Assembly (NCBI GenBank): GCA_026225295.1
Contig: JAMFSN010000137.1
Location: 1-48,177, forward strand
Reading direction: 5' to 3'
Origin: Frankia alni
GTDB taxonomy: Bacteria > Actinomycetota > Actinomycetes > Frankiales > Frankiaceae
DNA: 48,177 bases
In this document: positions 30,673-33,732 of the stretch, piece by piece
Layout: each line of letters starts with the position of its first letter
How positions within the stretch are numbered: the first letter of the stretch is position 1
The notes under the pieces: model-generated
Told to the model about the DNA's origin: nothing
Databases searched by the model: none
What the model saw: the letters and a program-made list of their open reading frames with translations, nothing else
Translations under genes and position numbers: made by a program

Positions 30673-30843
30673 ATGGGCGCCGATGACAAGATCAGCAACA
30701 AGGTCGATGAGGCCGCCGGCAAGATCAAGGAAAAGGCCGGCCAGGCCACGGACGATCCGGACCTGCGGGCCGAGGGCCAGAACGAGCAGAGCAAGAGCAA
30801 TCTCAAACAGGCCGGCGAAAAGATCAAGGACGCCTTCAAATAA
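30673..30843 (+). CDS. CsbD family stress protein
   Basis: A 56-residue small protein. It starts MGADDKISNKVDEAAGKIKE, then KAGQATDDPDL and ends with a Lys-rich helix (LKQAGEKIKDAFK). The repeated KxxE/DxxAGKIKEKAG pattern is the CsbD family signature (also called YjbJ/general stress). These abundant, disordered or helical proteins accumulate under stress, and their biochemical role is unknown. AGGG lies upstream of the ATG, and a sigma-B-like promoter is about 80 bases before it. It precedes the repeat-protein cassette by 157 nt, so common regulation is possible but unproven. Confidence 0.93.
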   Translation: MGADDKISNKVDEAAGKIKEKAGQATDDPDLRAEGQNEQSKSNLKQAGEKIKDAFK

Positions 30844-31000
30844 GTCGTTCCCGGCCGGTGGTCTCTGGCCCCTGGCCGACCCTCGCCGCGTGCGCGCCCG
30901 GCCCGGTGAGTCTCCCGCCGCCACCCGTGGCGCGGGGCGGGGGTTCCGATCGAAGATCCAGCCCCACGAAGATGAAATCCACGAGAGAAGGCGCATTGTG

Positions 31001-31330
31001 ATGAACCTCGACGACGATGCAGGCACCGAAGGTCCGGCCGATGGTGGGGCCGGTGGTACGCCGGGCGTGAGCGACGGTGGTGCGGACGGCGGCGCGGAAG
31101 GTCCGGCTGATGGTGGGGCCGGTGGTACGCCGGGCGTGAGCGACGGTGGTGCGGACGGCGGTGCTGACGATGGCGCCGAGGGTCCGGCTGATGGTGGGGC
31201 CGGTGGTACGCCGGGCGTGGACGATGGTGGTGCGGACGGCGGTGCTGACGATGGCGCCGAGGGTCCGGCTGATGGTGGGGCCGGTGGCACGCCGGGCGTG
31301 AGCGACGGTGGGGCCGACGGCGGCGGGTGA
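31001..31330 (+). CDS. Asp/Gly/Ala-rich tandem-repeat protein, candidate modified precursor
   Basis: 109 residues: a 9-residue head (MNLDDDAGT) and four near-identical repeats. Each repeat reads EGPADGGAGGTPGV, then (S/D)DGGADGG, with units 2 and 3 ending ADDGA. Repeat lengths are 23, 27, 27 and 23 residues. It is extremely acidic and has no Lys, Arg, Cys, aromatic residue or hydrophobic segment. No export signal is present. GAGAAGG precedes GTG/ATG at 30998/31001. Its stop lies 3 nt before the start of a JmjC-type hydroxylase gene, which in turn overlaps an Fe-S protein gene, so this is probably their substrate. I do not recognise a named family. The frame is supported by repeats in multiples of three and by the operon spacing. 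Confidence 0.7.
   Translation: MNLDDDAGTEGPADGGAGGTPGVSDGGADGGAEGPADGGAGGTPGVSDGGADGGADDGAEGPADGGAGGTPGVDDGGADGGADDGAEGPADGGAGGTPGVSDGGADGGG
31028..31327 (+). repeat. Four tandem DNA repeats (69/81/81/69 bp)
   Basis: Units start at 31028, 31097, 31178 and 31259, each beginning GA(A/G)GGTCCGGC. Units 2 and 3 carry an additional 12 bp encoding ADDG. The near identity at third codon positions means recent expansion by slippage or unequal exchange. This is a coding minisatellite, not a CRISPR array. Confidence 0.9.
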
Positions 31331-31333
31331 GCT

Positions 31334-32647
31334 GTGCCTGATTCCAGCGTGCCGGAGAACCGGGTCGCCCCTCGCCAGGGGCGCCCGGCTCTTCGCCGTC
31401 TGCTGCCGGCCGGCGTCGCGGTGGACGAGTTCGCCGCGCGCTACTGGGGGCGGCAACCCCTCCATCACCACGCGCCGGACCAGCCGGCGTTGCTGACCCT
31501 GGCCGATGTCGACGAGCTGCTGTCCCGGCGTGGCCTGCGCACGCCCTTCCTGAGGGTCGTCAAGGACGGGGTGGTGCTGCCGACGTCGCGGTACACCAGC
31601 GGCGGCGGGGTCGGAGCCGCGATCGGCGACCAGGTCGCCGATGACCGCGTGCTCGGGCTGTTCGCCGACGGGGCCACGGTCGTGCTGCAGGGTCTGCACC
31701 GGTTGTGGCCCCCGGTCATCGACTTCGCCACCCGGTTGGCGGCCGACCTCGGGCATCCGGGCCAGGTCAACGCCTACATCACCCCGCCCGGGAACTGCGG
31801 TTTCGATCCCCACTACGACGTCCACGACGTGTTCGTCCTGCAGACCGCCGGCCGCAAGACCTGGCGCGTGCACGCGCCGGTGCACCCGGACCCGCTGCCC
31901 GACCAGCCCTGGACGGACCACCGGGCGCAGATCGCCGCCCGGACGCGGGAGGAACCGCTGCTCGAAGTGACGATGCGGCCCGGGGACGTCCTCTACCTGC
32001 CGCGGGGCACCCTGCACGCGGCGACCGCCGGCCAGGAGGTGAGCTGCCACCTCACCATCGGGATCCACCCGACGACCCGCCAGCACCTTGTCGAAGCGCT
32101 GCTCGGGGCGGCGAAGGACGAGCCGGAGCTGCGGCGGTCGCTGCCGCTGGGTTTCGATCTGGACGACCCGGACGCGCTGGCCGCGGAACTGCGGGCCACC
32201 GTCGCGGCCCTCGGCCGGCTGCTGGACGGGGCCGACCCGGCCGCCCTCGCCGACCGCCTGGCCCCGACGCTGCTCAGACAGACCCGTCCCGCCCCCCTCG
32301 CCCCGATCGGGCAGGCGGCCGCGCTGGCCGCGCTCGGTCCGGGCGATGAGATCCGGTGGCGACCGGGGCTGTCCGCCCACCTGAGCGCGGACGGCACCCT
32401 GATCCTGCCGACCCGCCGGCTCGCGCTCGTCCCGGCGCAGGTCGTCGCGCTCGAGGAGTTCCGCCGGGTCACGGTGTGCCGGGTCGGTGACCTGCCCGGC
32501 CTACCGCCGGCCGGCCGACTCGAATTTGCCCGGCTGCTGCTGCGGGAAGGCATCGCCGTTCCGGCCCGGGGCGGCGGGTCCGAGGCGGGCCGGCTACCGG
32601 ACGGGACCGGCGTAGTCGGGTGGGCTGGAGGAGCTGATGCTGGCTGA
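31334..32647 (+). CDS. JmjC/cupin-like 2-oxoglutarate-dependent hydroxylase (ROXA/YcfD-type)
   Basis: A 437-residue Fe(II)/2-oxoglutarate oxygenase of the cupin_4 (JmjC) family. Members hydroxylate protein side chains: Arg of ribosomal protein L16 in YcfD, His in NO66/MINA. The opening LLPAGVAVDEFAARYWGRQP and the iron triad His160-x-Asp162 (FDPHYDVHDVFVLQTAGRK) with His228 (LYLPRGTLHAATA) are intact. A C-terminal dimerisation/winged-helix region follows. It starts with GTG, 3 nt after the repeat-protein stop, and its end overlaps the next gene by 11 nt. Because its gene is fused into an operon with a repeat protein, that protein, rather than a ribosomal protein, is the likely target. That target is inference. 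Confidence 0.88.
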   Translation: MPDSSVPENRVAPRQGRPALRRLLPAGVAVDEFAARYWGRQPLHHHAPDQPALLTLADVDELLSRRGLRTPFLRVVKDGVVLPTSRYTSGGGVGAAIGDQVADDRVLGLFADGATVVLQGLHRLWPPVIDFATRLAADLGHPGQVNAYITPPGNCGFDPHYDVHDVFVLQTAGRKTWRVHAPVHPDPLPDQPWTDHRAQIAARTREEPLLEVTMRPGDVLYLPRGTLHAATAGQEVSCHLTIGIHPTTRQHLVEALLGAAKDEPELRRSLPLGFDLDDPDALAAELRATVAALGRLLDGADPAALADRLAPTLLRQTRPAPLAPIGQAAALAALGPGDEIRWRPGLSAHLSADGTLILPTRRLALVPAQVVALEEFRRVTVCRVGDLPGLPPAGRLEFARLLLREGIAVPARGGGSEAGRLPDGTGVVGWAGGADAG

Positions 32648-33551
32648 GGACCGGTGCGCGGCGACGTCGGTCGGGCGCGGCGACGAAGCCGAGGGCACCG
32701 CGCTGACCGCCCACCGTTTTCTGCTGATCGAGCAGGAGGGCGGGTGGGGTCAGGACGCGATCACCGAGTCGCGGTTCGACCCGGTCCTGGGCCGGACGGT
32801 CGCGCAGGCCGGCCTCCCGACCCGGACCCGTGTGCTGATGATCCGTCGTCCCGGCCGCCGTCCCGCCTCAGACCCTCCGCCGGAACCGGCGTGGTTCCTG
32901 GCCGACACCCGCCCGGGCCGGGAGAGCATCCGCACCGGTCCGGTTGGCGACGGCGCCGACCTGCTCGGTCTCGTACAGGAGGACGCGCCGACCGCCGGGA
33001 CCACCTCGAGCGCCCCGCTGTTCTGCGTGTGCACCCACGGGCGGCACGACCCGTGCTGCGCGATCCGGGGCCGCCCGTTGGCCGCTGCCCTGGCCGCCCG
33101 GGAGCCGGCCGGCACGTGGGAGTGCTCGCACATCGGCGGGGACCGGTTCGCCGCCAACCTGCTGATCCTTCCGCACGGGCTGACCTACGGGCGGGTGACC
33201 GCCGACAACGCGGCCGACATCGTCGACCGCTACCGCCGGGGCCTGGTCGAACCAGGTCTGCTGCGGGGCCGGTCGACGTTCGGCCCGGCGGTCCAGGCCG
33301 CCCAGCATCACGCCCGCGCGGCGCTCGGCATCACCGCGATCGACGGATTGGCACCGCGGGGCGTCGAGCGACGCGGCGGGGCCTGGACGGTCGCACTCGC
33401 CGACCCGGACGGGGGGCGGCTGACCGTGACGGTGCGAAAGATCGCGGCGGGTTCGCCCGCGTTGCTGACCTGCGACGCGCGCGGGCCGGCGGCTCCACCG
33501 GCCTGGCGACTGGAATCGCTGGTCCGCCCGGTCGTAGGCCGGGATTCGTAG
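32637..33551 (+). CDS. Sucrase/ferredoxin-like (Suc/Fer) thioredoxin-fold protein
   Basis: 304 residues. The core motif is FCVCTHGRHDPCCAIRGRPL (about 129-148), followed by WECSHIGGDRFAANLLILPH and GLTYGRV. That is the conserved Cys/His block of the sucrase/ferredoxin-like family, a thioredoxin-fold [2Fe-2S] type. Cys130/132/140/141/163 are candidate ligands. The family name is historical; an electron-transfer role is more likely than sugar hydrolysis. GGAGG is five bases before the ATG, which overlaps the JmjC gene by 11 nt, so both are translated together. It may supply electrons to, or act after, the hydroxylase. A long hairpin terminator follows. Confidence 0.9.
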   Translation: MLAEDRCAATSVGRGDEAEGTALTAHRFLLIEQEGGWGQDAITESRFDPVLGRTVAQAGLPTRTRVLMIRRPGRRPASDPPPEPAWFLADTRPGRESIRTGPVGDGADLLGLVQEDAPTAGTTSSAPLFCVCTHGRHDPCCAIRGRPLAAALAAREPAGTWECSHIGGDRFAANLLILPHGLTYGRVTADNAADIVDRYRRGLVEPGLLRGRSTFGPAVQAAQHHARAALGITAIDGLAPRGVERRGGAWTVALADPDGGRLTVTVRKIAAGSPALLTCDARGPAAPPAWRLESLVRPVVGRDS

Positions 33552-33593
33552 CTCCGGCCGCCGCGGCTCGACCGCTGCGCCCGCGGCTGGCAA

Positions 33594-33638
33594 CCAGTCC
33601 CGGTACCGGCGCGCGAGGCGCCGGTACCGGGTGACTGG
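33594..33638. terminator. Long hairpin terminator ending the repeat-protein operon
   Basis: The arms CCCGGTACCGGCGC (33599-33612) and GCGCCGGTACCGGG (33618-33631) pair perfectly over 14 bp around GCGAG. An outer CCAGT/ACTGG pair extends the stem. It lies 43 bases after the sucrase/ferredoxin stop. There is no T-tract. Confidence 0.75.
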
Positions 33639-33732
33639 CTGCCTGCCGACGGCCCCCGTTTCCCCGCACGGACCACGCTATCGGCGGCTGGGACGGTTGC
33701 GAACCCGGGCGGGAGCACAAGCGGGTCCCGGT

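Follow-up and report, generated by a model that had tools for sequence, protein, structure and literature searches.

Acidic repeat proteins encoded beside ROX-type JmjC oxygenases in Actinomycetota: candidate substrates of a proposed RiPP-like system

Introduction

To our knowledge, few substrates of bacterial JmjC hydroxylases have been described. The locus analysed here raises the question of whether such an enzyme acts on a small acidic repeat protein whose gene lies directly in front of its own. It belongs to a 48,177-nucleotide stretch of Frankia alni DNA, referred to below as the window, in which genes for a repeat protein, a JmjC oxygenase and an iron–sulphur protein follow one another on the same strand. 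A pairing of this kind offers experimenters a likely substrate, since the two genes are neighbours. No published description of an acidic-repeat/JmjC pairing was found in the literature searched, which does not fully exclude a prior one, and the string 'DGGADGG' is absent from the same literature.

Results

Organization of the operon in the window

The original prediction comprised a repeat ORF, a JmjC gene starting 3 nt after it, a Suc_Fer gene overlapping the JmjC gene by 11 nt and a 14-bp hairpin closing the unit, and the coordinates of all these elements are confirmed (Table 1).

Table 1. Coordinates of the operon and its associated features in the window
Feature	Position	Strand	Basis or remark
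GAGAGAAGG, ribosome-binding-like stretch	30983..30991	+	9 nt 5' of the repeat-ORF ATG; RBS-like score 5/6
Small acidic repeat protein, 109 aa, proposed substrate/precursor	31001..31330	+	Same-slot homologues in other loci
Repeat unit 1, EGPADGGAGGTPGVSDGGADGGA	31028..31096	+	
Repeat unit 2, EGPADGGAGGTPGVSDGGADGGADDGA	31097..31177	+	
Repeat unit 3, EGPADGGAGGTPGVDDGGADGGADDGA	31178..31258	+	
Repeat unit 4, EGPADGGAGGTPGVSDGGADGGG	31259..31327	+	
JmjC_2 (ROX-type) Fe(II)/2-oxoglutarate oxygenase, 437 aa	31334..32647	+	Pfam PF08007 9.8e-27; GTG start
Suc_Fer-like thioredoxin-like [2Fe-2S] protein, 304 aa	32637..33551	+	Pfam PF06999 2.9e-19
Perfect 14-bp inverted repeat, 5-nt loop, candidate transcription-unit end	33599..33631	.	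Sequence and folding

The two arms of the hairpin (33599–33612 and 33618–33631) are complementary at 14/14 positions, so that the perfect stem stands as predicted; it may plausibly close the transcription unit, but no T-run was found 3' of it in the window, which leaves that role unproven. The hairpin is nested in a longer imperfect stem (33581–33652) preceding the next gene, with a folding energy of -61.6 kcal/mol (z = -7.35). Neither a sigma-70 promoter nor a T-run terminator was found at the operon, as expected for such GC-rich DNA. Just 5' of the operon, at 30673–30843, lies a gene for a CsbD-like stress protein (PF05532, 6.1e-17), for which no conserved-neighbour status was seen. A defence island was rejected after PADLOC gave no match, and a phage origin was rejected as well, the JmjC match being absent from 50,697 phage records.

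The repeat protein

The repeat protein contains 44 G, 20 D, 18 A, 8 P, 5 T, 4 E, 4 V and 3 S, with M, N and L occurring once each, corresponding to 40% Gly, 18% Asp and 17% Ala. It is built from four units of the form EGPADGGAGGTPGV[S/D]DGGADGG, with lengths of 69, 81, 81 and 69 nt, and additionally carries a degenerate leader-like stretch, NLDDDAGT. Third codon positions hold 27 of the 36 pairwise nucleotide differences between repeat units, and 25 of the 31 codon differences are synonymous; the repeat ORF thus behaves as coding sequence, which argues for a translated and selected protein. When tested against Pfam and NCBIfam, the repeat protein and the other precursor types described below gave no match, although a low-complexity correction could mask a weak one. 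Because such small ORFs are not represented in these databases, they are easily missed in annotation.

The JmjC enzyme

Judged from its sequence and predicted structure, the JmjC protein is of the NO66/MINA/YcfD (ROX) type, these three proteins being its nearest relatives by both sequence and fold, with NO66 the top match in each respect. The JmjC_2 profile scores 93.4 bits against a curated Pfam cut-off of 22, and Foldseek places NO66 first for the AF2 model (pLDDT 78.7), with an E-value of 1.2e-25 over about 466 columns. The model comprises a JmjC domain, a low-confidence helical region and a C-terminal winged-helix-like region at about residues 320–410, the placement of the domains being uncertain (TM 0.44). 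The intact His-x-Asp...His signature of a JmjC/cupin oxygenase, noticed at the outset, is present as H160, D162 and H228, and this Fe(II) triad is invariant in 107/107 JmjC homologues, as is K175, for which homology suggests a role in 2OG binding.

Enzymes of the NO66/MINA/YcfD type are protein side-chain hydroxylases, and known targets of JmjC hydroxylases include Asn/Asp, His, Arg, Lys and other residues. The window enzyme shares with NO66, MINA53 and YcfD (PF08007) the JmjC domain, the HxD...H motif, the 2OG lysine, and the helical and C-terminal winged-helix-like regions. It differs from them in genetic setting, its gene standing directly behind an acidic repeat ORF and, in this group of loci, usually before a gene for a [2Fe-2S] protein. 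Furthermore, the candidate substrate here is not ribosomal, and the candidate residue common to all precursors is Asp rather than His or Arg.

Conservation of the pairing across genomes

JmjC relatives at E <= 1e-30 occur in 91 of the 394 sampled genomes of the window's class. Other classes of the phylum Actinomycetota encode JmjC relatives too, as do ten named contigs (Actinokineospora, Amycolatopsis, Agromyces, Nocardioides and several MAGs), and less similar ones occur in relatives of the window's family. For 100 JmjC relatives, a surrounding region of up to about 9 kb was extracted and examined together with the named loci. The class set consisted of 108 JmjC loci including the window, with two duplicates removed, and 106 of them were testable, two having the JmjC gene at a contig start.

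By motifs and inspection, a short Asp-rich ORF was recognised just upstream of the JmjC gene, on the same strand, in 98 of these 106 loci. Two others carry a non-repetitive acidic ORF, and in the remaining six, which are distant or long-branch JmjC relatives, none was recognisable. Had related JmjC/Suc-Fer pairs consistently lacked a repeat ORF, the original prediction would have been undermined; the opposite was found. At the genome level, the association between the acidic repeat protein and the ROX-type JmjC oxygenase is established, and the two genes are separated by short gaps or joined by small overlaps, the junction often being exactly 4 nt. Two loci from one genus (L092 and L093) are devoid of both repeats and Suc_Fer; the same slot is occupied there by a conserved acidic protein ending in DDPELxGADLxEDQxxGxGPTxEPGA, perhaps a degenerate or converted precursor.

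The association was also measured by a composition rule (25–200 aa, Asp >= 14%, DGASTEPNV >= 80%) run on all 13,759 ORFs of both strands, with the slot defined as -700 to +120 relative to the JmjC match. The rule returned 88 ORFs, 82 of them in the slot, each from a different locus, and only six elsewhere. Since it had been devised after the class data were seen, it was applied unchanged to a hold-out drawn from other classes of the phylum and comprising 17 JmjC loci, where a rule-positive slot ORF appeared in 15/17 loci and two matches fell elsewhere. By eye, a precursor-like ORF was present in 17/17: the two rule-negative loci (L161 and L162) carry Asp-rich repeats just upstream (ADGTDQGVEGGTYGPRD; DTDGTDSRD) and were missed because of other residues in their ORFs. 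In the reciprocal direction, five or more DGGADG on one strand were found in 25 of the 394 genomes, and 24 of these 25 contain the JmjC gene. Re-examination of the exception (G211) and of other JmjC-less genomes showed scattered sites with at most two adjacent; tandem DGGADG arrays were observed only beside a JmjC gene. Beyond the three genes, no neighbour is common to precursor types A–C and other clusters are lineage-specific; a larger conserved cluster was accordingly rejected.

Precursor types and conserved residues

The precursors fall into several repeat types. Type A, to which the window belongs, is characterised by PADGGAxGxPGxHDGGADGG, type B by GEGxADGGSNPxGHDGGADGTA and type C by DADGTDGDATDTTDGD, while type D is short (35 aa, ...DSDGTDSSSDFI) and type E, from the window's own family, contains ...SDSDGSDG. 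Streptomyces clavuligerus has a more distant relative with DNDPSD/DPDPFDP, whose annotation says no more than 'hypothetical protein' and which precedes a 'cupin domain-containing protein'. Mapped onto the JmjC tree, the sub-types require 14 changes, compared with 58 in shuffles; only clustering of sub-types is claimed from this, because the tree comes from a quick search and has many weak forks.

Only Asp, Ala and Met are found in every one of the 97 scored precursors; Gly and Ser occur in 96 each, Pro in 89 and His in 64, and the net charge of these proteins ranges from -6 to -34. The original statement that the repeats lack Arg and His holds for the window copy, but most same-type relatives carry His just before DGGADGG. 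An N-terminal acidic leader resembling MALDDDDITT is common to many A, B and C precursors; a leader-like motif is present in 60% of 112 precursors, as against 4% of shuffles, and is absent or degenerate in the other 40%, including the window.

Iron–sulphur proteins and other companions

The AF2 model of the Suc_Fer protein (pLDDT 83.7) contains a thioredoxin-like [2Fe-2S] ferredoxin domain, which superposes on the Aquifex [2Fe-2S] ferredoxin 1m2a with a VIA-align Z of 11.2 and 1.8 A over 87 residues. Its candidate ligand motif is C132-X8-C141...H165-X3-D169. The Apd1/Aim32 motif reads C-X8-C-Xn-H-X3-H (PMC8482512), and the Suc_Fer protein resembles that group in its PF06999 match, thioredoxin-like ferredoxin fold, C-X8-C and conserved His. 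In contrast to Apd1/Aim32, however, the second His of the motif is replaced by Asp in 71 and by Cys in 2 of the 73 Suc_Fer homologues beside JmjC, which may thus possess a new cluster ligand set. Further cysteines, C7, C140 and C279, are invariant among the 73 homologues.

A Suc_Fer gene lies downstream of JmjC on the same strand in 74 of 110 loci (70, plus four whose ORF is continuous with the JmjC region). In type E it is found on the opposite strand nearby in 6/9 loci. In type D, its place downstream on the same strand is taken by a protein bearing the C-terminal [2Fe-2S] motif of FhuF in five of seven loci (L123, L124, L125, L129 and L130); the farthest of these proteins is about 3.9 kb off, and two were confirmed by Pfam. 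This recurrence of a [2Fe-2S] companion would fit a putative redox role. Type D also shows an S9-like (prolyl-oligopeptidase-like) peptidase ORF upstream in 6/7 loci, with its motif about 0.8–1.0 kb before the JmjC match. In seven type E loci (L131, L132, L133, L134, L135, L137 and L139), an aldo/keto reductase gene directly follows JmjC (Pfam Aldo_ket_red, one copy tested).

Discussion

Proposed mechanism

The proposal that a precursor lies here beside its modifying enzyme is strongly supported as a genomic layout by the comparative data, from which we infer the modifying role itself. Because the pairing is so tightly conserved, the repeat protein is very probably the substrate of the JmjC enzyme, and this is the most economical reading of the sequences. 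Asp is the best-supported modified residue, being the only chemically plausible JmjC target present in all 97 precursors, and its hydroxylation by the JmjC enzyme appears likely. The explanation favoured here, a dedicated substrate and modifying enzyme forming a RiPP-like system in which the Asp residues of the repeats are hydroxylated with the help of a redox partner, is on balance considered probable.

In this scheme, the precursor would begin with a short acidic leader (L-x-D-D-D-I-x-T in most relatives) and continue with repeats in which D-G-G-A-D or D-x-D-G-T-D is abundant. The ROX-type protein would bind it, possibly through the C-terminal winged-helix domain, with the leader as a putative recognition element, and the JmjC domain, with Fe(II), O2 and 2-oxoglutarate, would hydroxylate repeat Asp residues at C-beta. 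The part of redox partner may fall to the [2Fe-2S] Suc_Fer protein, which could maintain iron in its reduced state or act on the product once it is modified. What results would be a polyanionic peptide or protein carrying many hydroxylated sites (beta-hydroxy-Asp), for which metal binding is the most plausible function, though a guess.

Several observations count against this explanation. Six testable distant JmjC relatives have no recognisable precursor, 40% of precursors show no leader motif or only a degenerate one, and several lineages with a precursor have no Suc_Fer beside JmjC. No conserved protease or exporter was found among the neighbours of types A–C, such genes being a common but not obligatory RiPP feature. 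An IdeR- or Zur-like box upstream, which would have pointed to an Fe- or Zn-regulated operon, was rejected after scoring no better than shuffled sequence. Moreover, the closest solved JmjC relatives modify His or Arg of ribosomal proteins.

Alternative explanations

This last point bears on the possibility that the JmjC enzyme modifies the repeat protein elsewhere, at the His before DGGADGG, at Pro or at Gly, or that the outcome is a cross-link or ring formed by oxidation. Of the solved relatives, the nearest, NO66 and MINA, hydroxylate His, and His makes up 109 of the 580 residues directly preceding a DGG[A/S] unit in types A and B. The window, however, has Ser or Asp at that position, His is absent from most C types and all D types, and Pro is missing in 8 of the 97 scored precursors, so that modification at another residue or with another outcome seems unlikely. 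For the cross-linking variant, macrocyclisation by an alpha-ketoglutarate dioxygenase in RiPPs is a precedent known from the title of ref. 45 in PMC12710340. The repeat protein might instead not be a substrate at all, serving the two iron proteins of the operon as a chaperone, a regulator or an acidic buffer for metal (Fe2+), a role suited to its strong negative charge and Asp-rich repeats; proximity alone does not prove substrate status. Yet the repeat sub-types change along the JmjC tree even where Suc_Fer is absent, and a free-standing buffer need not stay tied to one enzyme. In addition, disordered stretches of protein are what JmjC hydroxylases act on. The buffer role is regarded as unlikely.

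The ROX-type fold would also suit an ordinary ribosomal oxygenase preceded by a small ORF that is a mere translational leader or a chance ORF. This is strongly contradicted: the small-ORF protein keeps its composition from class to class within the phylum despite divergence in sequence, the differences among repeats show third-position bias with 25/31 codon changes synonymous, and the hold-out loci gave 17/17. Chance origin of the ORF, in particular, is rejected on the synonymous bias, the slot enrichment under the composition rule and the hold-out loci, leaving this explanation with a very slight probability overall.

Significance and related systems

The acidic-repeat/JmjC operon, usually accompanied by an iron–sulphur protein, is spread over much of Actinomycetota. 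If Asp is hydroxylated, it would amount to a bacterial aspartyl hydroxylase paired with its own dedicated substrate, and to a new RiPP-like class in which each molecule carries many modified sites. A bolder extension, doubtful at present, is that these operons specify phylum-wide, undescribed JmjC-made RiPPs, in which beta-hydroxyaspartate would furnish a genetically encoded, polymeric hydroxycarboxylate metal ligand served by a [2Fe-2S] reductase (mostly Suc_Fer, FhuF-like in type D).

Among the nearest parallels are BipG, BpmG and PbsQ of the biphenomycin family of RiPPs, in which a JmjC-related oxygenase likewise stands beside a genetically encoded precursor. PbsQ, a cupin/JmjC hydroxylase, adds +16 Da to a ribosomal precursor peptide (PMC12257519, PMC12707348), and RRE-like folds are reported among PF08007 proteins of eukaryotes, with bacterial homologues in RiPP-like genomic settings (PMC12710340). 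In the biphenomycin-type systems, however, the oxygenase performs one tailoring step (on Orn) after an MNIO and an arginase, and the cluster also encodes a radical SAM enzyme, whereas here no peptide-modifying enzyme other than JmjC is obvious and an Asp-rich repeat protein is the candidate precursor. A separate arrangement was seen on a plasmid of Streptomyces sp. NBC_00435 (L142, 1766–8687), where two adjacent cupin/JmjC genes are followed by genes for an MFS transporter, an M13 metallopeptidase and an S9 peptidase, in what looks like an undescribed peptide-modification cluster.
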